From Fodinibius salsisoli (GTDB taxonomy: Bacteria > Bacteroidota > Rhodothermia > Balneolales > Balneolaceae), in assembly GCF_026229185.1 (NCBI RefSeq), contig NZ_JAGGJA010000003.1, forward strand, positions 186,001-250,000: a stretch of DNA of 64,000 nucleotides. The letters are read 5' to 3'. The notes below the pieces were generated by a model. It saw nothing but the letters and a program-made list of their open reading frames with translations, was not told where the DNA came from and searched no databases. The translations under genes were made by a program, and so were the position numbers. This document shows positions 3,149-51,737 of the stretch, in pieces; position 1 is the stretch's first letter; every line of letters starts with the position of its first letter.

Positions 3149-4195
3149 TTAATTTTGGTCGTGTTGGCGCTCCCTCTGTCGCTTAATGCGATACTGTTTC
3201 TGGATCCATTCTCTCCACTCAGCACTCTTTCGTTGATGTTCCTGATAAGTCCTGGAAAAGTTGTGCGTCCCTTCTGGACTAGCGACCATATACAAGTACT
3301 CATGCTCAGCAGGAAATAAAGCTGCTTTAATTGAGGTTTCACTGGGATTTGTTATAGGCCCGGGGGGCAAACCGCTATGCAAATAGGTATTATAGGGATG
3401 ATCGATCTTATAATCCTTGAATGTGAGTCTGCGACGTTCTCCTACTGCAAAATTTATGGTCGGATCGGCTTGCAGCCTCATTCCCGTTTCCAGGCGGTTC
3501 CAATATAAGCCACTAATGGTATCTTTCTCGCTGTCATTACCTGCCTCCCACTCAATAATGGAAGCCAGAGTCACAATCTCATTAACTGATTTATCCAGCT
3601 CCTTAAACCGCTCTTTATACTTTTCGGCTATACTTTGCTGGAAGGTATTCAGCAGCCGGGTTATCACTTCATCAGCGCTTGCTGTCCAATAAAACGAGTA
3701 GGTATTAGGATGTATACGTCCGATAATTTCTGTAGAATCAATACCCTGTTTGGCTAAAAAAGTACTGTCTTTGAGAGTGTTTGCCAATGATAAAGAGTCA
3801 AACCTAAATGACTGGGCAATGCGTTGTGTAATTTGTGACTGGGAATAGCCGGGTAAGACGGTGAGCCGGATAGGATCTTGAAGCCCACGACCCAATTTAG
3901 AAAAGAGCTCTTTATAAGAGCTTTCAGGCTCAAATTGATAATGCCCCGCTTTAAAATTTTTCCAATGGAGCGTTCCAACGGCCCAGTCAAATTCTTTTTT
4001 TCTTTTAAGAAGCCCTTTTGTTAAAAGCGTATCAGCCAGTCCTTCTGGGCCAAGGCTACTGCTAAGATAGATATGTACCACCTCATCACTGGTAAGAGCC
4101 GGGCTGTTATAAAGTCTCGTCCAGCGCGATCCAGCGATTACCAAAGCTACAATTACCCAAAGGGAAAATCCGAAAGCAAATTCTCTGAAGTTCAA
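3149..4195 (-). CDS. mltG: endolytic murein transglycosylase MltG (YceG-like)
   Basis: Inner-membrane lytic transglycosylase that cuts nascent glycan strands and so ends their elongation. It has one N-terminal membrane helix (about 8-24), a LysM-like region, and a YceG domain with ASIIEWEAG at 211-219; E215 corresponds to the family's catalytic glutamate. The downstream block LQADPTINFAVG, YNTYLHSGLPPGPITNPS and HNFSRTYQEH is diagnostic. Length (348 residues) is normal. The gene lies 16 bp downstream of the yccA-like gene on the same strand, so the two are probably cotranscribed, and it converges on the receptor gene with 30 bp between stops. Confidence 0.95.
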   Translation of the reverse strand: MNFREFAFGFSLWVIVALVIAGSRWTRLYNSPALTSDEVVHIYLSSSLGPEGLADTLLTKGLLKRKKEFDWAVGTLHWKNFKAGHYQFEPESSYKELFSKLGRGLQDPIRLTVLPGYSQSQITQRIAQSFRFDSLSLANTLKDSTFLAKQGIDSTEIIGRIHPNTYSFYWTASADEVITRLLNTFQQSIAEKYKERFKELDKSVNEIVTLASIIEWEAGNDSEKDTISGLYWNRLETGMRLQADPTINFAVGERRRLTFKDYKIDHPYNTYLHSGLPPGPITNPSETSIKAALFPAEHEYLYMVASPEGTHNFSRTYQEHQRKSAEWREWIQKQYRIKRQRERQHDQN

Positions 4196-5270: not shown

Positions 5271-6197
5271 ATGGAAGCACCATATACTCCTGAAAAATAC
5301 GACAAAAAACTGGATCGAATTAACTGGGTTAGTGGAATCCCCTTTATTCTCTTACACTTGGGATGCTTCCTTGTCTTTTGGGTGGAATTCAGCTGGGTAG
5401 CCCTGGCAGCACTGTTCTTGAGCTATACTGTTCGTATGTTTGGGATTACCGCAGGATTTCACCGCTACTTTTCGCATCGTACCTTTAAGACCAGCCGGGT
5501 ATTCCAGTTTTGTTTGGCTTGGCTGGGCACCTCAAGTGCTCAAAAAGGACCACTTTGGTGGGCCGCTCACCATCGTCATCATCACAAATATTCTGACACC
5601 GAAAAAGATGTACACTCTCCCGTTCAGCGCAGTCTATGGTGGTCGCACGTTGGATGGATTCTGAGTAATCGGTTTAAGGAGACGAATTCTAAGATGGTGA
5701 AAGATCTTTCTAAATTTCCCGAACTCAAATTTTTAAACAATTATCATCTTTTACCTCCCATCATTCTTGCAGTAGGGACTTTCGTAACCGGAGCATTGCT
5801 CGATTACTATTTTCCCTCGTTAGGCACCTCGGGCTTACAGTTTTTTGTCTATGGATTTATTTTGAGTACTGTTCTATTATACCACGGAACTTTTACGGTT
5901 AACTCGCTGGCCCACGTATTTGGCAAACGCCGATTTAAGACCAAGGATGACAGCCGCAACAACTGGTTTATTTCACTCATCACGCTGGGCGAAGGCTGGC
6001 ATAATAATCACCATCGGTTCCCTTCTTCCGAGCGGCAGGGCTTTTACTGGTGGGAATTCGACTTCTCTCATTATGGACTGAAAGTACTGTCGTGGTTCAA
6101 ACTGGTATGGGATTTACGCGTGCCTCCACAACGAGTATACGCAGATCATAAAATATTCAAACGTCCACCGGATGTTATTGAACATCCCCAATCATAA
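5271..6197 (+). CDS. acyl-CoA/acyl-lipid desaturase (stearoyl-CoA 9-desaturase type)
   Basis: Membrane di-iron enzyme that inserts a cis double bond into fatty acyl chains. All three histidine boxes are present: HRYFSH (64-69), HHRHHH (100-105) and HNNHH (244-248). Two hydrophobic hairpins lie at about 20-58 and 160-205. The 308-residue length suits bacterial delta-9 desaturases without a cytochrome b5 domain. I take the ATG at 5271 because it leaves a complete N-terminal helix before box 1. A role in membrane-fluidity adjustment is inferred from the family. Confidence 0.93.
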   Translation: MEAPYTPEKYDKKLDRINWVSGIPFILLHLGCFLVFWVEFSWVALAALFLSYTVRMFGITAGFHRYFSHRTFKTSRVFQFCLAWLGTSSAQKGPLWWAAHHRHHHKYSDTEKDVHSPVQRSLWWSHVGWILSNRFKETNSKMVKDLSKFPELKFLNNYHLLPPIILAVGTFVTGALLDYYFPSLGTSGLQFFVYGFILSTVLLYHGTFTVNSLAHVFGKRRFKTKDDSRNNWFISLITLGEGWHNNHHRFPSSERQGFYWWEFDFSHYGLKVLSWFKLVWDLRVPPQRVYADHKIFKRPPDVIEHPQS

Positions 6198-6925: not shown

Positions 6926-8272
6926 TCAACTCAGTACCTCAGTCACTCCCGGTGTAGGTATGGGATAATCCCCGTTTTCATCCGGAACTACAGGAGGCTG
7001 GGCATCCCAGGAAAAAGAATCGGTATCTGGCACCAATCTTTTTGTTGAACTCATGGCATCATCCCATGAAATAACTTTTCCTGAATAAGTAGCCATTCTA
7101 CCCATGATGGCTGTCAGCGTACTTTTAGCTCCGTATTCCGTATTGTTGATCACTTCCCCATTCCGGATAGAAGCAAAAAGCTCATCGTGCTCCTGTTGGT
7201 AAGGATTGGGGTCATCAGTGGCTTTGTGGTTATAGATAATGTCACCATTCCAATTTTTAATCACTCCTTTATCGCCCTGCGTATCGACGGTTCCTTTTGT
7301 AGTTTGGAAAAATTCGGAGACTCGATTCATGGTATCAGGCTGGTGGCGGCACTGACTGCTTATGACCGCGCCACCGGGATAGGTAAACTCAACAAAATGA
7401 TGATCAAATATCTGTCCGTGATCCTTACCATTACGAACTTCACGGCCTCCCATGCCCTGGGCGGATACCGGATATTCCCCAATCATCCAGTTAGCAACAT
7501 CAATATTATGAATATGCTGCTCCAGGATATGATCACCACATAGCCAGGTAAAGTAATACCAGTTCCGCATCTGGTATTCCATCTCGGTCTGTTCAGGCTG
7601 GCGGGGGCGTTCCCAAACACCGGCACTATTCCAATAAACCTGTCCGGATACTATATCACCTGCGTCTCCTCCGTGCACTCTCTTAGCTACTTCGCGGTAG
7701 CTATTTTGATAGTGCCGCTGAAGGCCAACAACAACATTGAGATTTTTCTTTTCAGCAAGCTTGCCGACTTCCAGTACCTTCTGGATTCCCGGCGCATCCG
7801 TTGCCAGGGGTTTCTCCATAAACACATGTTTATCAGCTTTTATAGCGGCCTCAAAATGCATGGGCCGGAAACCGGGAGGTGTTGTCAATATGACCACATC
7901 AGCCAGTTCAATAGCCTTCTTATAACCATTAAAACCCGTAAACTTGTGTTCCTCAGGCACATTCAGCTGATCCGTTTCACCAAACTTTTTAGATAAGGTG
8001 GAGTAACTGTCATCCAGTCGATCTCTAAAAGCATCAGCCATAGCTACTAACTGGTTGCCACTATCGGCGGTCAGTGCCTGGTTAGCAGCACCCGTGCCAC
8101 GTCCACCACAGCCGATAAGTGCAATTTTTAGTGTTTGATTGCTATTTTTTCGGTTCATTGCTCCCATTGCTGGAATCGTACTTAATAGCATACCACCGGC
8201 GGCAAGCGATGCACTTTTACAAAAATATCGACGAGAGATGGAACTATTTTTTTTGTCTTTATCTTGTGACAT
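6926..8272 (-). CDS. TAT-exported Gfo/Idh/MocA family oxidoreductase
   Basis: Putative NAD(P)-dependent sugar or polyol dehydrogenase. The N-terminus carries a twin-arginine signal (SRRYFCK, about 13-19, then ASLAAGGMLL). The Rossmann motif ALIGCGGRGTGAA follows at about 52-64, and MEKPLATDAPG gives the family's EKP lysine. The C-terminal domain includes the substrate-side WMIGEYPVSAQGMGGR. The 448-residue length is normal for exported members. It is the last gene of the long minus-strand locus and lies about 70 bp after the SUMF1-like gene. Together with DUF1080 and the other oxidoreductases it suggests periplasmic oxidation of a glycoside to a 3-keto form; the substrate is unknown. Confidence 0.88.
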   Translation of the reverse strand: MSQDKDKKNSSISRRYFCKSASLAAGGMLLSTIPAMGAMNRKNSNQTLKIALIGCGGRGTGAANQALTADSGNQLVAMADAFRDRLDDSYSTLSKKFGETDQLNVPEEHKFTGFNGYKKAIELADVVILTTPPGFRPMHFEAAIKADKHVFMEKPLATDAPGIQKVLEVGKLAEKKNLNVVVGLQRHYQNSYREVAKRVHGGDAGDIVSGQVYWNSAGVWERPRQPEQTEMEYQMRNWYYFTWLCGDHILEQHIHNIDVANWMIGEYPVSAQGMGGREVRNGKDHGQIFDHHFVEFTYPGGAVISSQCRHQPDTMNRVSEFFQTTKGTVDTQGDKGVIKNWNGDIIYNHKATDDPNPYQQEHDELFASIRNGEVINNTEYGAKSTLTAIMGRMATYSGKVISWDDAMSSTKRLVPDTDSFSWDAQPPVVPDENGDYPIPTPGVTEVLS

Positions 8273-41289: not shown

Positions 41290-41610
41290 TCAAGCCTCTT
41301 TCTCATCATGGGAAAGGGGCTTTTCTAATCCATTTATTTTTTGAAGTGGCTGATGAAGAACAAATTTATACAAAAAAAGCAATGCCGATAGTGCCTGGTT
41401 TTGAGCAGCAACTGCCACCTGACGTTCTTCAGCCAAATAATTTAGGTAAGCAATCACTTCCGGCTCCGCCATTTCTTGCGGATGGCTGAGGCTGTGAAAT
41501 TGAACGTATCGCTTAACCCAGTCTGCATAGGCTTGCTCTGTACTGTAGCTATAATTTTGTCTCCTGACCTCTGTCCGTAACTTGCTCAGCAATCGTGATT
41601 TCCCCATCAT
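41290..41610 (-). pseudogene. intI: integron integrase IntI, N-terminal fragment
   Basis: A 106-residue frame matching the SAM-like N-terminal domain of integron integrases: SKLRTEVRRQNYSYSTEQAY, ADWVKRYVQFH, HPQEMAEPEVIAYLNYLAEE and QNQALSALLFLYKFVL are the IntI pattern. Homology stops near residue 88 (about 41350). The last residues (GLEKPLSHDEKEA) are encoded by the neighbouring terminator, so the catalytic domain with the R-H-R-Y residues has been deleted. It reads away from the cassette array, as intI genes do. It cannot be active on its own. Confidence 0.82.
41291..41326 (+). terminator. terminator of the metalloprotease gene
   Basis: AAGCCTCTTTC (41292-41302) pairs with GAAAGGGGCTT (41312-41322) with one mismatch, followed by TTTTCT, 27 bp after the stop. 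Confidence 0.7.
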
Positions 41611-41779
41611 TCTCCTCTTTTTACTCAGGTTTACATAGGTAAGTCCCTTTTTGAAGGAAATCCTTACAAAAAAATATTATATCAACCTGTTATCGAAACG
41701 CTATGTGTGATAATATCACCAGATAATGCATTATTTGGATTTATATGGAATTTTCAAGAGTATTATCGCATGCTCCTTG

Positions 41780-41800
41780 ATATAATTATAGGTTAGGTAG
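41780..41800 (+). other. attI-like core site
   Basis: GTTAGGT at 41792-41798 fits the integron core GTTRRRY and equals the core ending attC1, attC2 and attC4. It lies 180 bp from the intI fragment and 66 bp before the first cassette ATG (21 bp before a possible upstream start). No attC-like inverted repeat precedes it, as expected for attI. Confidence 0.65.
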
Positions 41801-41819
41801 CTTTATAATTTAAAATAAG

Positions 41820-42644
41820 ATCATCAGTGACAACAATTCAGAAAAACCACTTTGTTTTGTAATAATGCCAATAAGTGACCCAGATAAATATGAAGAAGGT
41901 CATTTTAATAGAGTATATGAACATTTAATAGAACCAGCATGTCTACAAGCGGGCTTTAGGGTTTTAAGAGCAGATAATATTAATTCAACCCATCATATTG
42001 TACTAGAGATACTCGATCAGATTGTTAATGCCGAAATGGTTTTGTGTGATTTGAGTAGCACAAATCCTAATGTGTTGTATGAATTAGGCATAAGACAAGC
42101 CTTTAATAAACCTGTAACCATTATAAAAGATGATGTAACTCCAAGAATATTTGACATCCAGGGGATTAGAGATATTGAATACGATTCAACTTTGAGAATA
42201 GATACTGTTGAGGATTTACGGAAAGAAATATCAGTCGCCTTAGAAAACAACTCAAAAAGTAATCAAAAAGGAATTAATTCATTGATTGAGTTATTAGGGA
42301 TAAGAGCAGCCAAAGTTTCATCTTCGGTGGAGATTTCAGAAGAGTCAAAATTAATCCTTAGTTCCATGGATGATATACATAAAAGGCTATCTAGTCTGGA
42401 AGAAAATTTTAGAATTACGAGGTTCAGGACTGCTCAGAAAAACGATATTATTGATCATCTTGATATGGAATCTGATATAACTTATGTAGTTGGTGATGAA
42501 ATAATTCATGATGACTTTGGTAAAGGAAAAATCTTAAACTTACAGCATAAAAAAAGAACCGGGCCTGCAGGTGTAGTTGAATTCGAAGATAAAGGTAGAA
42601 AAACTTTACTTCTCAGACATAATAAAATTAAACCAGCTACCTAA
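41820..42644 (+). CDS. cassette gene 1: deoxyribosyltransferase/TIR-like protein with C-terminal UvrD-type tudor-like domain
   Basis: The first ATG in frame is at 41865, but the frame is open from 41814 and the preceding codons read EKPLCFVI, directly joining MPISDPDKY. CFVIMP is the conserved first strand of nucleoside-2-deoxyribosyltransferase-like proteins, so I extend to a possible non-ATG start (ATC 41820 or 41823). The hallmark CDLSSTNPNVLYELGIRQA has its Glu at residue 73 from the ATG. A linker follows, and then a C-terminal GDEIIHDDFGKGKILN...LLLRHNKIKP domain like the small C-terminal domain of UvrD/PcrA. Likely a nucleotide-binding or NAD-type enzyme, perhaps in defence. The stop TAA lies inside attC1. 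Confidence 0.72.
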   Translation: MISDNNSEKPLCFVIMPISDPDKYEEGHFNRVYEHLIEPACLQAGFRVLRADNINSTHHIVLEILDQIVNAEMVLCDLSSTNPNVLYELGIRQAFNKPVTIIKDDVTPRIFDIQGIRDIEYDSTLRIDTVEDLRKEISVALENNSKSNQKGINSLIELLGIRAAKVSSSVEISEESKLILSSMDDIHKRLSSLEENFRITRFRTAQKNDIIDHLDMESDITYVVGDEIIHDDFGKGKILNLQHKKRTGPAGVVEFEDKGRKTLLLRHNKIKPAT

Positions 42645-42848
42645 CCTATATATGGCCTCCAATGTCAATAGGCTATAGCAATTCCGGGCAAGAAAAATAT
42701 CTCCTCGCCCCCGATGCGTCGGGGCCACTTTTTTGGCTTTTTAGCTCTTCGTTCATTATTTATCAATTCAACATTCATTAGCGTGTAGCTTATATACAGC
42801 CTATGTAGCCGTGCTACTTCGGCGTAGTAGTCCGCCATGTCGTTAGGT
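42639..42848 (+). repeat. attC1 recombination site
   Basis: It begins ACCTAAC (42639-42645, RYYYAAC, containing the stop of cassette gene 1) and ends GTTAGGT (42842-42848). The 210-bp interior includes a CCCCGATGCGTCGGGG hairpin (about 42709-42724) and a segment at 42794-42828 shared with attC3b. Unusually long for an attC. Confidence 0.78.
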
Positions 42849-42873
42849 TGCAAATCAAAATATTCAAGACAAA

Positions 42874-44157
42874 ATGCCAAATATTTTTACTATTCATTTA
42901 AGCTCAGGTTTCAGACCCGATTTGTTTTCGGAAGGCCCTCCTAGCTTAAAAGCTCTAAACAGTATTGAAGAAGAACTTAAAGACAATTTTCTGGATATCA
43001 GTTCATTCGAAAAAGCAGGAGTTCTGTTAGATACAGTTAAACCAACAGGCTCTGGGCAACTTCCTTTATTTAAGAAGTTTGGAAATTTGTTGACTCCTGA
43101 TTTAGTAATATTAGCTGTAACAGCCCTTAGAGCTGGAGGCAGAAGACATGCAGAAATAATAGAGAGAGGTGAAAGACCCTCAAGGAAGAAGCTTCAAAGA
43201 ATTCGTCATAAAGAAGAAACGAAACTTATTAAGTTGATCGAATTCATGGTTCCAAGCCTTATTCAGGGAATTAAAGAAAGATCTCCAAATACAAATATTG
43301 TCCTTTTTTCGACTAGATTTAACGATCAATTAGCTCGAATTTGCTCAAATAGAGATACCTTTTTTGCGGGGGGATTGTCAACTGATTTAATTCTCTCAAC
43401 ATGCAAAGGATTGCTAAGCAATAACTTAAAAGCCAATGAAACTGTAGTAAGGACTATTGAATTTCCTCCTGAATTCATACAAGCTGGGGTTTCCATATTA
43501 AGCTACTTTGGAAATTATATTCAAAATGAATATCAAAACGACAATCTCAAAGTTGCAATCCAACAAGAAAATGATACTATTTCTTTGATTATTGAAACTC
43601 CTGATGGGGAAATCAAAGAAAAAATTGAAAGAAGTTTTGCAGACTATCGTAAAGTCCTTCAAGGTGAAATGAAACCAGAGCAATTCGTAAGCGATAAACT
43701 CAAACAAGTTGAACTCAAAAATCAATTAAGAATTGCAGCTTTACAAGTTGAACAAAAAAATGAATTGCTTGAACTATCACGTCAACAAAGCCAAAGAGAT
43801 CGAAAACGCATTGATAAACTTGAATCTAGAGTTGATGATTTATCATCAATGGTTGAGAAATCTTTTGAGCAAACATTAGAAGAAAAGCAAAGTCTTGTTA
43901 ATACCCTTCAAAACCTCATTAACAAGTCTGATTCAACAATAAAAAACTCATTACAGATAATTAAAGATCAGTTAGAAAAGGGAGAAGATGAATTAGATAA
44001 TCAAAAATTCAAAGAAGCATTGGCAAATATTCGTGCCAAAGATCCTGATATGTTTACAACACTATTTAATTTAATGATTAAAGAACCGTTGACAGGTTCC
44101 TTTGGGAGTTTCATTTATAACGTCCTTATTAATTTAGCAGGCAGTTTGCCTAAATAG
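42874..44157 (+). CDS. cassette gene 2: 427-residue coiled-coil protein of unknown function
   Basis: Starts 26 bp after the attC1 core, as cassette genes usually do. I recognise no named family. Residues 1-230 look globular (PDLVILAVTALRAGGRR, PNTNIVLFSTRFNDQ). Residues about 225-275 carry ISLIIETPDGEIKEKIE and YRKVLQGEMKPEQFV. About 275-370 is a charged Q/E/K/L-rich coiled coil. The C-terminus (LFNLMIKEPLTGSFGSFIYNVLINLAGSL) is hydrophobic and could insert in or touch a membrane. Codon and base use are markedly A-rich compared with flanking chromosomal genes. A sensor-coiled coil-membrane effector layout is possible but inferred. Confidence 0.7.
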   Translation: MPNIFTIHLSSGFRPDLFSEGPPSLKALNSIEEELKDNFLDISSFEKAGVLLDTVKPTGSGQLPLFKKFGNLLTPDLVILAVTALRAGGRRHAEIIERGERPSRKKLQRIRHKEETKLIKLIEFMVPSLIQGIKERSPNTNIVLFSTRFNDQLARICSNRDTFFAGGLSTDLILSTCKGLLSNNLKANETVVRTIEFPPEFIQAGVSILSYFGNYIQNEYQNDNLKVAIQQENDTISLIIETPDGEIKEKIERSFADYRKVLQGEMKPEQFVSDKLKQVELKNQLRIAALQVEQKNELLELSRQQSQRDRKRIDKLESRVDDLSSMVEKSFEQTLEEKQSLVNTLQNLINKSDSTIKNSLQIIKDQLEKGEDELDNQKFKEALANIRAKDPDMFTTLFNLMIKEPLTGSFGSFIYNVLINLAGSLPK

Positions 44158-44163
44158 TTTGTA

Positions 44164-44290
44164 ACCTAACCCGCGATTAACTCGGACACACCTCGCGAAT
44201 TCTCTGCCACTCTTGGTTTTAAAGTTCATCTTTCGTTAGTTGCTAATTCAACATTTCATCGCGTGCAGCTTATGCGCAAGGTCGTTAGGT
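44164..44290 (+). repeat. attC2 recombination site
   Basis: Starts ACCTAAC (44164-44170), 7 bp after the gene 2 stop, and ends GTTAGGT (44284-44290); 127 bp, a standard attC size. The interior (CTAATTCAACATTTCATCGC, then GTGCAGCTTATGCGC) is clearly related to attC1 and attC3b. Confidence 0.82.
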
Positions 44291-44312
44291 TTCTCTAAAA
44301 ATAGTACTAAAT

Positions 44313-45221
44313 ATGGAATGGGATTTTACATCTAAAACAATAGAGAGTTGGTCTGATTTAGACAATCTCGATATTGATCAAGAGCTTTATCTTTTTCGGG
44401 GTCAGTCAAAGTACTGTTGGGATCTGGAAACTACAATAGAAAGAGCTTTTCATCGGAATTCAGTTGACAGAACATTTTATATCAATCACGAACATTGGAT
44501 GCTTTATGAATTTAAAAGAAGGGCTCATCTATACCTTAGTTATGAACCTGATCAAGATGACTTAATTAGTTGGTTCGCTCAAATGCAGCATTTTGGTGCA
44601 CCAACACGCTTACTAGATTTCACTCATTCTTTATATATCGCTTCTTACTTTGCTTTGATTAATGGAAATGATAATGCTGCAATCTGGGGAATAAGAGAGC
44701 CTTGGATCAGAAACTCTTCTATAAAGTATGCTTCGAAATTTCAGGACAAATTAAACTTTTCCGAATTAGATTTCGAAGATCTCTCTTCGTATGGATTAAG
44801 AGATGACCAAATTAGATATTCCAATAATTTTGGCAACTCTTATATAAAGCAGATTCATAAGGATCATAAGCCCGGTCAAGTAGATACAGATGGTTCTTGT
44901 TTGAATGGACTATTAATGGTAGAACCAAATAAACAGATTGAAAGACTTGCTAAACAACAAGGAGTTTTTCTTATGCCATTGGATATAAGAAAAACTTTTC
45001 AAGAAAATTTGGTTAACCAATTTTTAAATACCTATTCGGCAGAATCTAATAAACGAGTTAAAAATGTTGTCATCAAAATCCTTATTAAAAAAGAAGCCAG
45101 AGATGAAATTTTAGAAAAGCTAAAAGAAATAAATATAACTGCTGAGCTTCTATTTCCTGGTATAGAAGGATTTGCAAAATCTTTAGAACACTTGGTTATG
45201 GTAAGGAGCCGAGAAACCTAA
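44313..45221 (+). CDS. cassette gene 3: FRG-domain protein
   Basis: A 302-residue protein with an FRG domain near the N-terminus. The eponymous motif is LYLFRGQSKYCWDLETTIER (about 27-46), and the second conserved block is MQHFGAPTRLLDFTHSLYIASYFAL (about 90-115, in two parts). No signal or membrane segment. FRG proteins are of unknown biochemical function and are common on mobile islands. Starts 22 bp after the attC2 core, and its stop codon lies inside the ACCTAAC of the next attC, as for cassette 1. A-rich coding sequence. Confidence 0.85.
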   Translation: MEWDFTSKTIESWSDLDNLDIDQELYLFRGQSKYCWDLETTIERAFHRNSVDRTFYINHEHWMLYEFKRRAHLYLSYEPDQDDLISWFAQMQHFGAPTRLLDFTHSLYIASYFALINGNDNAAIWGIREPWIRNSSIKYASKFQDKLNFSELDFEDLSSYGLRDDQIRYSNNFGNSYIKQIHKDHKPGQVDTDGSCLNGLLMVEPNKQIERLAKQQGVFLMPLDIRKTFQENLVNQFLNTYSAESNKRVKNVVIKILIKKEARDEILEKLKEINITAELLFPGIEGFAKSLEHLVMVRSRET

Positions 45222-45308
45222 CCCGCCTTTAGATTACCCTACCGAGTTGAGATGTGCAAAAAGGTCTCTCATATTAAAAATACCAGCACGGCGGGAAACA
45301 GGCTAGCC
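45216..45308 (+). repeat. attC3a, degenerate recombination site
   Basis: Begins ACCTAACCCGCC (from 45216). The partner half GGCGGGAAACAGGCT (about 45292-45306) keeps the inner GGCGGG arm but has lost the GTT of the core. The 3' boundary is approximate. It is followed at once by a second site with no gene between them. Confidence 0.5.
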
Positions 45309-45325
45309 CGCGCATCAGGCCTCGA

Positions 45326-45531
45326 GCCTAACACTTGACAAAGTCATAGCATTCAAGCGGACTCCCGTATGACGGGGCTCAGCACCTCGCCCCCGATGCG
45401 TCGGGGCCACTTTTTTGGCTTTTTAGCTTTCGGTTCGTTATTTATCAATTCAACATTCATTCGCGTGTAGCTTATGTACAGCCTACGTAGCCGTGCCTAC
45501 TTCGGCGTAATAATCCGCAATGTCGCCAGGT
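45326..45531 (+). repeat. attC3b recombination site with altered core
   Basis: Begins GCCTAAC (45326-45332) and ends GCCAGGT (45525-45531) where GTTAGGT is expected, so the core has lost its TT. The 3' two-thirds is nearly identical to attC1, including the block 45385-45428 versus 42703-42746. Confidence 0.65.
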
Positions 45532-45543
45532 GTACAAACAACA

Positions 45544-45939
45544 TCAATCAACGTAAATTTGTAGTGGCAGTTGAGTTGCTATCTGGTCGAAGTCTTTATC
45601 ATTGTGTAGCAGCTCCACTTCATGTTCGATGCACCAACTTCCAATTAGCATATCTACCGTTTTTCGAATTGTTACGCCTTTCGACCGAAGAAAACGAAAA
45701 TTAGATGCTGCTTTTATAGCCAGAGATTTTCCTCCGAGATGAACGCAGTCTAATGGATCAAGCGCTTGTTTGGCCAATCTAAACTCTTTGTCGCTATCGA
45801 AACCTTGTAGAATTTCGGTGAGGATAATATCTCCCAGGAGAACTGATTGCTCAGAAAGAACCTGGTCAAGGCTTTCGGTTTGCTGGTTTTCTATGCCATT
45901 GAAATAATCAACCCATACGCTGGTATCTACTAAAATCAC
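45544..45939 (-). CDS. vapC: cassette toxin VapC (PIN-domain ribonuclease)
   Basis: A 131-residue PIN-domain nuclease. The acidic residues of the Mg-binding site are all present: D5 (ILVDTSVWVDYF), E42 (LTEILQG), D96 (KTVDMLIG) and D114/D118 (HNDKDFDQI). VapC toxins cut RNA, often initiator tRNA, and are silenced by the paired VapB. Its start overlaps the vapB stop by 4 bp (ATGA). The pair reads against the cassette direction, so it must have its own promoter. Confidence 0.93.
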   Translation of the reverse strand: MILVDTSVWVDYFNGIENQQTESLDQVLSEQSVLLGDIILTEILQGFDSDKEFRLAKQALDPLDCVHLGGKSLAIKAASNFRFLRSKGVTIRKTVDMLIGSWCIEHEVELLHNDKDFDQIATQLPLQIYVD

Positions 45940-46133
45940 TTCTCGTCAGTCCTCATATCATCTAAATCACCTTTCCAGTGCAATTTCCCGCGCAAGTCTT
46001 TGATATTTTCCTGCTTTTTACGCTGGACTAATAATTTCAAGCCTTCTTCCACAGCAGCTTTTTTTGTTTTCAATCGACTCACCTTCAAGGCTTCATCCAT
46101 CAAGTCGTCATCGATCACTACATTCGTTCGCAT
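45936..46133 (-). CDS. vapB: cassette antitoxin VapB
   Basis: A 65-residue antitoxin. The N-terminal ribbon-helix-helix is RTNVVIDDDLMDEALKVS (strand plus helix), then TKKAAVEEGLKLLVQRKK, with a C-terminal toxin-binding tail (LRGKLHWKGDLDDMR). It is expected to repress its own promoter in complex with VapC. It is translationally coupled to vapC by a 4-bp overlap. Toxin-antitoxin cassettes are thought to stabilise integron arrays. Confidence 0.92.
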   Translation of the reverse strand: MRTNVVIDDDLMDEALKVSRLKTKKAAVEEGLKLLVQRKKQENIKDLRGKLHWKGDLDDMRTDEK

Positions 46134-46209
46134 AATTGTACCGACTTAGTTAATGTGTATTTTTTATCAATTTATACACATAACTGCTCAAATCCTAACT
46201 TTATTGTAC

Positions 46210-46678
46210 ACCTAACCGGCGCATACCCTTAGCAAACAGTCAAATAAACGTTTTAAAAACGGTGACTAAGATGCACCTTTCCCGCAAATGGAGTCATTCC
46301 ATTTAACAAATCCCGATAAAGAGGTGGTTTTAGGCAATGTTACCTGCTCTGTTTGCTGTAGTCGTCCAGTCGGTTTGCAATAGTACTCACCTCGTTGGAA
46401 AACGATTCCGTGCTCTCGTATTCGTGCTCGCCTTGCCGGTATCGACTGTACAGATCCAGCCGGCGGCTGCTCACATCAATTGCCAAAAGCAAATGAGATG
46501 GATCAGGTTTGTCCCTGTCATAACATTGTGTAATCTCCTTCATGGGCATCCTCATAGGGTTCGTTCGTAGTGGAACAACCAAGGTGACCTCTTCTGTGAA
46601 GAACGTCAACCTTGAGGGTGCCCTAAGCGGACACGCCTCCCTCCTGCGCTAAAGGCCCACTACGCAATGTCGTTAGGT
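46210..46678 (+). repeat. attC4, split by an IS110-type remnant
   Basis: Begins ACCTAACCGGCGCA (46210) and ends TACGCAATGTCGTTAGGT (core 46672-46678). The two ends pair beyond the cores (CCCTTAGC near the start against GCTAAAGG near 46648-46655). About 400 bp lie between the arms, including the transposase fragment at 46340-46609. Confidence 0.65.
46340..46609 (-). pseudogene. IS110-family transposase, N-terminal remnant
   Basis: An 89-residue frame whose middle (LLLAIDVSSRRLDLYSRYRQ) resembles the first strand of the DEDD/RuvC-like IS110 transposase, with AIDVS carrying the first catalytic Asp. The remaining catalytic residues and the C-terminal Ser region are absent. It lies inside attC4; the IS1111-attC group of this family is known to insert specifically in attC sites. 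Identification rests on one short motif. Confidence 0.55.
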
Positions 46679-50005: not shown

Positions 50006-50312
50006 TTTTTACACCTAATACTCGGCTTAAGTTGAGGCACCTAACGATAGGTTTATGGCTTCCATTCTGTAACCTTAACCAGAAAATATATACTTCCTTG
50101 GACTAATAATGTTCTCCAATAAGAGTTGGTATTACTTATCAATTATAATGTTGAGAGATAGATGAATCCGGTACAAATAGCCCCAAGGGAAATGGACCGT
50201 AACCTTCAACTAAAGCTATGGGCGACACTGACTCTTGCCTGTCTCTAATTTATTAATTAACCTTTCGTCATCTTAATACTCTGACAACTGCACCACATAA
50301 ACATTACTCCTT
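50006..50312. other. intergenic region
   Basis: 307 bp between divergent genes. The only structure seen is the short palindrome ACCTAACGATAGGT (50039-50052). It contains ACCTAAC but has no partner half, so I do not call it an attC. No ORF. Confidence 0.4.
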
Positions 50313-51064: not shown

Positions 51065-51737
51065 AGATAGATGTCATGATTTCTTTTAAGCCCCCAAACA
51101 TAACATTTTTTGCGAATCAATGGTGGGGTACGGTAAATTAAGTGTATTGATTAATTATAATAGCCGATTGTAAGGCTGGTAAGTTTTTATAGCAACCCAA
51201 AAATGGAACAACTAATGTTTATTTCCTTGATCCAAAAGGCTTAAAAAAGATCTAGGGCCCACTACGCCGAAGTAGCATAGCTACGTAGGCTGTACTGAAA
51301 ATTTCTTAGCGGCGCTCATGGCCTTCATGCTGTATAAATTCAATGGTCTTTCTTTGGTTTTAACCTCTAATTAAAGTTTAACCGGTATGAATTTATACGG
51401 TCCCACTTCGCCCCATTCGCTTTCCTCCGCCAACAAATTCAAGGCCAAGGGTCTTATCTAAAGACACAAGTGTTTTTCAGTCCCTCGGCCTATGAATACA
51501 GTGCGTTAGCTAAAGGAGAATCCACAGCCGGTGACATTTTTGATCCCTAAATAATAAAGACATAGCATTGCTTACCTATGGTGCAGCTGTTTCCTTCATC
51601 TGCTTTACAAAAAACATTAAGATCGACATGTACTGATCACCTGAAGAGATCAAAATTAAAATGCGATGAATTGCGATTACTTCGTCTATTTAGATATTTT
51701 AAGAAATAATTCTCAGCGAATTCAGACTGTATTGAAA
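51065..51737. other. intergenic region with attC-like and possible decayed coding sequence
   Basis: About 670 bp. It holds the 51261-51294 fragment that matches the complement of the attC1/attC3b interior. An open but startless stretch of about 60 codons ends at 51550 (contains RQQIQGQGSYLKTQVFF). I cannot identify the latter. Confidence 0.45.
51261..51294 (-). repeat. attC-interior-like fragment
   Basis: ACTACGCCGAAGTAGCA followed by CTACGTAGGCTGTA is the reverse complement, with few mismatches, of the segment at 42794-42828 in attC1 and 45478-45509 in attC3b. No complete core flanks it. Confidence 0.6.

Follow-up and report, generated by a model that had tools for sequence, protein, structure and literature searches.

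What kind of element is represented by the segment at positions 41290-46678 of a 64,000-nucleotide stretch of the Fodinibius salsisoli genome (contig NZ_JAGGJA010000003.1; the whole stretch is referred to here as the window), and is that element still complete? A first-pass annotation, made from the sequence alone, had described the segment as a small chromosomal integron with defence-like cassettes. It consists of a truncated integron integrase gene (intI), an attI region and four cassettes, with four attC sites as their ends (Table 1). The data presented below make it almost certain that this is a genuine chromosomal integron that has decayed. The integron itself was thus confirmed; it is, however, a remnant rather than a complete integron, the N-terminal part of intI alone being left here. 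It is considered decayed because intI is truncated and because three of the four attC sites (attC1, attC3 and attC4) are broken.

The intI fragment is a 106-codon open frame. Its residues 7-98 match positions 1-92 of the 315 in the integron integrase model TIGR02249 with a score of 92.7 bits, as against 19 bits for the XerD model, and it matches the Pfam family Phage_int_SAM_4 with an E value of 1.2e-25. These matches bear out its earlier identification as an N-terminal fragment of IntI. The fragment, which provides the only TIGR02249 match in the window region, is 44-65% identical to the three other IntI proteins of this genome; its last eight or so residues are unrelated, and a matrixin-like protease gene ends to its left. 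The interval between intI and attI aligns with those of the genome's three other integrase loci in a four-way alignment. Over 114 nt (41659-41772) it is 94.7% identical to a sequence at 304 kb of contig C40 of the same genome, and it is 91.2% identical to one in G006. It is apparent that the attI-like GTTAGGT noticed earlier lies in a region homologous to those of the three other IntI loci. With the fragment on the minus strand and attI on its cassette side, the layout also agrees with that originally described, in which intI reads away from the cassettes.

The attC sites were analysed with a covariance model, R1, that was based on 20 sites, each about 128 bp long. None of these came from the window: six congeners contributed 18, Rhodohalobacter one, and L010, a distant array of the same genome, the last. 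The R1 structure contains 19 pairs, eight of which have changed on both sides in one sequence or more. The control, 140 kb outside arrays (80 kb from F. salsisoli, 60 kb from three congeners), yielded no full-length match, and its best partial match scored 21.2 bits. attC2 was matched over its full length, with a score of 102.8 bits and an E value of 2.2e-28; it possesses the full R''-L''...L'-R' architecture and is identical to an attC of G002 in 116 of 129 aligned columns. The other three sites bounding the cassettes are recognisable but broken. Partial R1 matches were obtained in attC1 (42724-42781; 24.8 bits, 4e-5) and attC3 (45384-45473; 23.7 bits). Because these scores are near the control background, the two sites were accepted on their cores, which are in place although R' of attC3 is mutated, and on their right halves, which over 70-71 nt show 87-89% identity with another attC of the genome (88.6% over 70 nt, in the case of attC1, to an attC in L144). 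At its left end attC4 shares 89.9% identity with L010 3846-3974 over 129 nt, and its inserted sequence, approximately 400 bp in length, was recognised from the joined flanks.

The four attC-like sites proposed earlier therefore stand, attC2 by R1 and the others by cores and similarity, with the qualification that three of them are broken. The covariance-model check suggested in the first-pass annotation for 42639-42848, 44164-44290 and 45326-45531 produced a full match for the second interval and only partial matches, near background, for the first and third. The proposed start of attC3 at 45326 proved incorrect: the true R'' is the ACCTAAC at 45216, and the GCCTAAC at 45326 sits in an inserted piece derived from an IS110 insertion sequence (IS).

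The cassette boundaries follow the attC sites closely. As had been noticed, the stop codon falls inside the RYYYAAC in two cases, namely the first open reading frame (ORF1; ACCTAAC of attC1) and the FRG-domain gene (ACCTAAC of attC3). The stop codon of ORF2 is situated just before attC2, and the vapBC pair precedes attC4. Gene starts shortly after the core, proposed at 22-26 bp, were found at 22-25 bp for ORF2 and the FRG gene and not for ORF1, the first ATG of which is 66 bp after the core. The frame of ORF1 is open back to 41814 with no ATG, GTG or TTG, and a homologue in G190 begins 15 residues earlier; the start codon of ORF1 seems, from this comparison, to have been lost.

Table 1. Features of the integron remnant and copies of the REP-like palindrome in the window
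Feature	Position	Strand	Basis or remarks
intI fragment, N-terminal SAM-like part	41290-41610	-	TIGR02249 and PF13495 matches; catalytic domain gone
attI/promoter region	41659-41798	+	core GTTAGGT at 41792-41798; similarity to other IntI loci
Cassette 1, ORF1: nucleoside deoxyribosyltransferase-/TIR-like N-terminus, UvrD/PcrA-tail-like C-terminus	41865-42644	+	weak matches
attC1, ACCTAAC ... GTTAGGT	42639-42848	+	cores 7/7; right half split by REP-like insert 42795-42832
Cassette 2, ORF2: coiled-coil protein	42874-44157	+	module shared with proteins having other N-termini
attC2, nearly intact	44164-44290	+	R1, full length; one base missing in L''
Cassette 3, FRG-domain protein	44313-45221	+	PF08867 4e-22; PADLOC PDC-S15, best match 5.7e-36
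attC3, broken	45216-45531	+	IS110-derived piece 45228-45354; REP-like insert 45477-45515; R' GCCAGGT
Cassette 4, VapC toxin of VapBC pair, opposite orientation	45544-45939	-	NF047959 8e-49; PF01850 1e-9
Cassette 4, VapB antitoxin	45936-46133	-	PF09957 3e-16
attC4, broken, last of array	46210-46678	+	cores 7/7; insertion 46225-46623 after GCGCAT; L' lost
REP-like palindrome, copy in attC1	42795-42832		
REP-like palindrome, copy in attC3	45477-45515		
REP-like palindrome, further copy	51257-51294	-	

Two other accounts of the locus were weighed. In one, it is a defence or stress island grown by ordinary recombination, and its attC-like repeats are passive arrivals resembling repetitive extragenic palindromes (REPs). 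Genes for FRG, TIR-like and VapBC proteins do occur together here, and REP-like palindromes are present. Such an origin is nevertheless very improbable in view of the full R-L-L-R architecture of attC2 and the compensatory pairs across the attC family, of genes whose stop codons fall within R'' and whose starts closely follow R', of the presence of intI and attI at the correct end and in the correct orientation, and of a homology of the VapBC cassette that begins at the core. In the other account, the array is a cluster of attC sites lacking integron-integrases (CALIN), which never had an integrase of its own and lies beside an unrelated fragment of the XerC/D type. One contig of the genome does bear an attC cluster (C22:23-43 kb) and has no integrase match, but the large difference between the scores of the integron integrase and XerD models (92.7 vs 19 bits), together with the presence, upstream of the fragment, of the same attI/promoter region as at other IntI loci, leaves this account scarcely any likelihood. 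The locus does resemble a CALIN in having attC sites with no functional integrase beside them; it differs in keeping an integrase fragment and attI, and in having one nearly intact and three broken attC sites.

Several points weigh against the identification as a decayed integron. R1 scores attC1 and attC3 only partially and close to the 21.2-bit background, and it gave no match at attC4. The folds, which had been suggested as a further check, discriminate poorly: the z value of the bottom strand was -2.0 for attC2 (top strand, -1.3) and -0.7 for attC1, and was only -1.3 for the intact site of G002. Recombination has been read from the sequence only, none having been observed directly. Finally, the left-hand neighbours are scarce among the congeners (cydA was found in two of 11 and the matrixin gene in one of 11), which precluded an empty-site comparison. 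The right-hand neighbour genes gave no match in the stretches around the congener cydA and matrixin places, to which that search was confined, and no Rfam family was found in the window at the gathering threshold.

A decayed chromosomal integron would have arisen here as follows. An intact IntI would once have inserted circular cassettes at attI via the folded bottom strands of their attC sites, each cassette bringing one gene or one gene pair. Later the integrase gene lost its catalytic part, and attC1, attC3 and attC4 were broken by the IS110-derived piece, the other insertion of approximately 400 bp and the REP-like palindrome. The cassettes would now be largely fixed in the chromosome, and at most attI and attC2 might still be usable, in trans, by two intact-looking integrases encoded elsewhere in the genome. 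The locus in this way illustrates how an integron dies, its integrase losing the catalytic domain and its attC sites being invaded repeatedly.

Two of the cassettes recur in other arrays. The VapBC cassette is present in the array of G010, which belongs to another species; of 484 aligned columns, 88% are identical. The homology sets in at window position 45513, in the R' region of the attC. In G010 the cassette carries a frameshift, and little of vapB is left. A relative of the FRG cassette, encoding a 37% identical protein, resides in an integron of G028, a member of another family of the same order, where it is preceded by a cassette encoding a PifA-like KAP NTPase. The G028 attC sites are situated on L134 at 3458-3548, 5819-5906 and 7459-7549, the first two having been found by R1 and the last two by a separate scan. 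The presence of VapBC and FRG cassettes in other integrons, judged by similarity and position, indicates cassette exchange. A second, broken copy of the FRG gene is located at C33:39980-40646 of the same genome. It follows a remnant of an attC right half, GCCTGCCGCTTATGCGC, which was recognised by its sequence; R1 found no attC at this copy.

Among 345 genomes of the phylum, F. salsisoli included, ORF1 was found in two, ORF2 in three and the FRG gene in two, the genomes other than F. salsisoli being G190 for ORF1, G016 and G091 for ORF2 and G028 for FRG. No match to any of the three was found in a congener within this set, which may not include all 11 congeners. Around the homologues of ORF1 (L136) and ORF2 (L150 and L151) R1 found nothing, and the separate scan gave no pairs in L151; those in L136 and L150 were weak.

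The suggestion that the cargo is defence-like was upheld for the FRG protein, received weak support for ORF1 and found none for ORF2. For the FRG protein, 14 PDC-S15 models of PADLOC appear among the matches listed, which makes it a candidate defence protein of the PDC-S15 family. The Pfam matches of ORF1 (PF05014, E=0.006; PF21196, E=0.03) are weak and both below cut-off; a UvrD tail was matched at E=0.0005 and a PADLOC TIR effector, weakly, at 3.5e-5. An AlphaFold2 model of ORF1, derived from two sequences, had a mean predicted local distance difference test (pLDDT) score of 42 and was not used. ORF2 gave no Pfam or NCBIfam match over the cut-off and no PADLOC match, and its homologues match residues 182-387 only. 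PADLOC likewise gave no match for VapC and VapB. It was also observed that in the C40:304 kb array neighbouring genes for a TIR and a SIR2-like protein (C40:305-308 kb; L014 1159-3675) are present as cassettes, and these are likely to constitute a two-gene defence cassette. For two further cassette proteins in L010 the PADLOC match was absent or very weak. Taken together, these similarities make a defence-like cargo likely for one cassette of the present locus and for some others of the genome.

The locus is not a lone case, because an integrase is found in 10 of 11 congeners and attC-model matches in all 12 genomes of the genus. The integrase matches were counted at E <= 1e-40, a threshold passed in 22 of 37 relatives up to the order. 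When genomes were searched with R1 or with the palindrome model R2, described below, the best 150 of approximately 800-1600 first-look candidates per genome were scored, and the counts are approximate. At E <= 0.01, the 12 genomes, F. salsisoli included, gave about 19-62 R1 matches each. F. salsisoli had about 62, three of them inside the window, scattered over many contigs; in at least several genomes of the genus the matches are on more than one contig. Within the window a weak partial R1 match was also seen in intergenic sequence at 50226-50293 (16 bits, E=0.017); given the control, it is probably due to chance. About 20 kb of a contig without an integrase match (C22:23230-43112; L137 and L138) contains many attC matches and is a large attC cluster.

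The genome has three further IntI matches above the cut-off. One is interrupted, and the other two (C33:437 kb and C40:113 kb) look intact from their sequences. In the integrase tree, the proteins of this genome fall in two lineages, one comprising C33:437 and C40:303 (with G006) and the other C40:113 (with G001). The window fragment, placed on 98 residues only, lies near the former on a long branch. The interrupted integrase, at C40:302978-304219 (L013/L014), is split near its C-terminus by an insert of approximately 290 bp that encodes a GIY-YIG protein and carries the inverted ends CCCCGTTAGAAAT and ATTTCTAACGGGG. This insert precedes the MIYTHV motif, which we take to be the site of the catalytic tyrosine.

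As an element, the integron is of a known kind in a little-studied lineage. It resembles the sedentary chromosomal integrons in that intI is divergent from attI, in having cassettes of one or two genes that end in a genus-typical attC, and in the presence of two intact-looking integrases and many attC sites elsewhere in the genome. It is unlike them in that the window array is short, its integrase is truncated, three of its four attC sites are broken and the attC sites of the genome lie on many contigs. Bacteroidota are named among the integron-bearing phyla in the available part of PMC9668308, and complete integrons are reported for the Bacteroidetes/Chlorobi group, for example in Salinibacter ruber M1, in that of PMC9024848. 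The latter case is alike in that the lineage is related and complete integrons exist there. In comparison with that report, as far as its accessible text goes, integrases (10 of 11 congeners) and attC matches (12 of 12 genomes) are recorded here throughout nearly all of a genus. No description of integrons of the Balneola/Fodinibius group was found in the portions of open-licence PubMed Central full texts that were available. The present data add an integron lineage that is genus-wide in the Balneolaceae and whose cassettes include candidate anti-phage genes.

Some features of the attI region and of the intI leader were also recorded. The attI/promoter sequence at 41659-41772 is 95% identical to L014 290-401, though the integrases concerned are only about 59% identical. 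Near-identical attI regions beside diverged integrases would point either to strong constraint or to exchange at attI. In 23 leaders, selected by their GTAAGG from this family and related ones (the window, at 41638-41672, and 22 others), TGTAAGG, mostly followed by CTTAC, precedes intI; RNAalifold found no common RNA structure in them. A LexA motif, TTACACATATTTTWTACATA, has been published for the Balneolaeota (PMC7739468, in the part available). When this motif was compared with 27 intI upstream regions, each with 200 shuffles, SOS control of intI was not supported: four or fewer of the 200 shuffles scored as well in only two of the 27 regions, and 20 of 200 did so for the window.

Two of the insertions in the array concern IS110. 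Over 111 nt, the piece at 45228-45354 in attC3 shows 90% identity with the left end of an IS110-family element in L014 (3691-5130; C40:307-309 kb), and that element itself sits in an attC, after GCGCATT. The insertion in attC4 contains an ORF (46340-46609, minus strand) that resembles the N-terminus of an IS110 transposase by eye only; Pfam found nothing in it. Tetu and Holmes, in 2008, and Post and Hall, in 2009, are said to have described IS1111/IS110 elements that target attC. Such targeting is also stated in the accessible part of PMC11187229. The present case is alike in that an IS110-family element of the genome is in an attC; it differs, as far as that text describes those elements, in that the long noncoding region of the L014 element precedes the transposase gene, which is the arrangement of the IS110 type. 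With regard to target choice by a seekRNA, the noncoding region of the L014 element shares only a 9-mer, CCCGCGCAT, with its target, and 3.4% of shuffles share one too.

The remaining insertion is a palindrome of 38 bp, which in attC1 and attC3 lies between TTAT[GA], the end of L', and the CGC before R'. A pattern search allowing three mismatches found 10 copies in this genome, each followed by the right end of an attC; it found no copy in the 11 congeners. Ten attC sites, attC3 of the window included, carry the palindrome exactly at TTAT[GA]^...^CGC. Besides the window, the loci with copies are L012, L016, L139-L142, L146 and L147. The palindrome model, R2, was built from 13 copies, one of them outside attC, so its counts are partly circular; the pattern search gives a cleaner count, although its pattern was likewise read off a window copy. 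At E <= 1e-4, R2 gave 22 matches among the candidates scored in this genome. By context, 13 of these are in attC sites (one without a recognisable R') and nine are outside. In eight tested stretches around the outside copies, the window copy apart, R1 found no attC. R2 also detected diverged copies in congeners, one of which, in G003, abuts an R1 match that is cut off at the same point. In the array loci examined from seven congeners, 93 kb in all, it detected no copy, and an exact 29-mer of the palindrome was absent from viral contigs.

From its sequence the palindrome looks like a REP element. REPs are described in the available part of PMC8266576 as short imperfect palindromes with a GTAG, present in dispersed copies and associated with TnpA-REP. 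The palindrome contains GTAG, its copies are dispersed and the genome has eight Y1_Tnp matches; in contrast to the REPs of that text, 13 of 22 copies are in attC sites, ten of them at one exact position. Its fold is no better than those of shuffles (z of -0.7 and -0.6). Although at least the attC-targeting IS1111 elements were retrieved from the literature, nothing resembling this palindrome was among the matches listed from the texts available. The attC palindrome is an unexplained, testable side finding.

It is conceivable, if doubtful, that a single-strand (HUH/Y1) transposase of F. salsisoli repeatedly inserts the 38-bp hairpin into folded or single-stranded attC at TTATG^CGCAA, splitting L' and freezing the cassettes. 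There is about an even chance that the palindrome has instead spread among attC right halves by gene conversion within or between arrays, with no transposition, since sequence near the insertion point is shared by attC sites and the inserts are nearly identical. Evidence opposing gene conversion came from a comparison with 74 empty right halves (28 of this genome, 44 of congeners and two others, namely one from G014, which belongs to another genus, and attC2 of the window, counted twice via L121). The palindrome-bearing attC sites are of different sequence types and have empty counterparts of their own. That of L142, in G010, shows no difference over the 69 nt that precede the insertion point, and four other bearing sites match congener sites of different sequence types with 85-92% identity over 60-92 nt; for L016 4064, the nearest empty relatives are only 79-81% identical over 58 nt. 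The occurrence of related palindromes outside attC, in this genome and in congeners, also argues against gene conversion. If the palindrome does target attC, it would represent a further natural parasite of integrons and a further route to the fixation of cassettes. A second short, GC-rich palindrome, CCCCGATGCGTCGGGG, was observed in four attC sites, within their variable part: two in the window (at approximately 42709-42724 and 45391-45406) and one each in L141 and L142.

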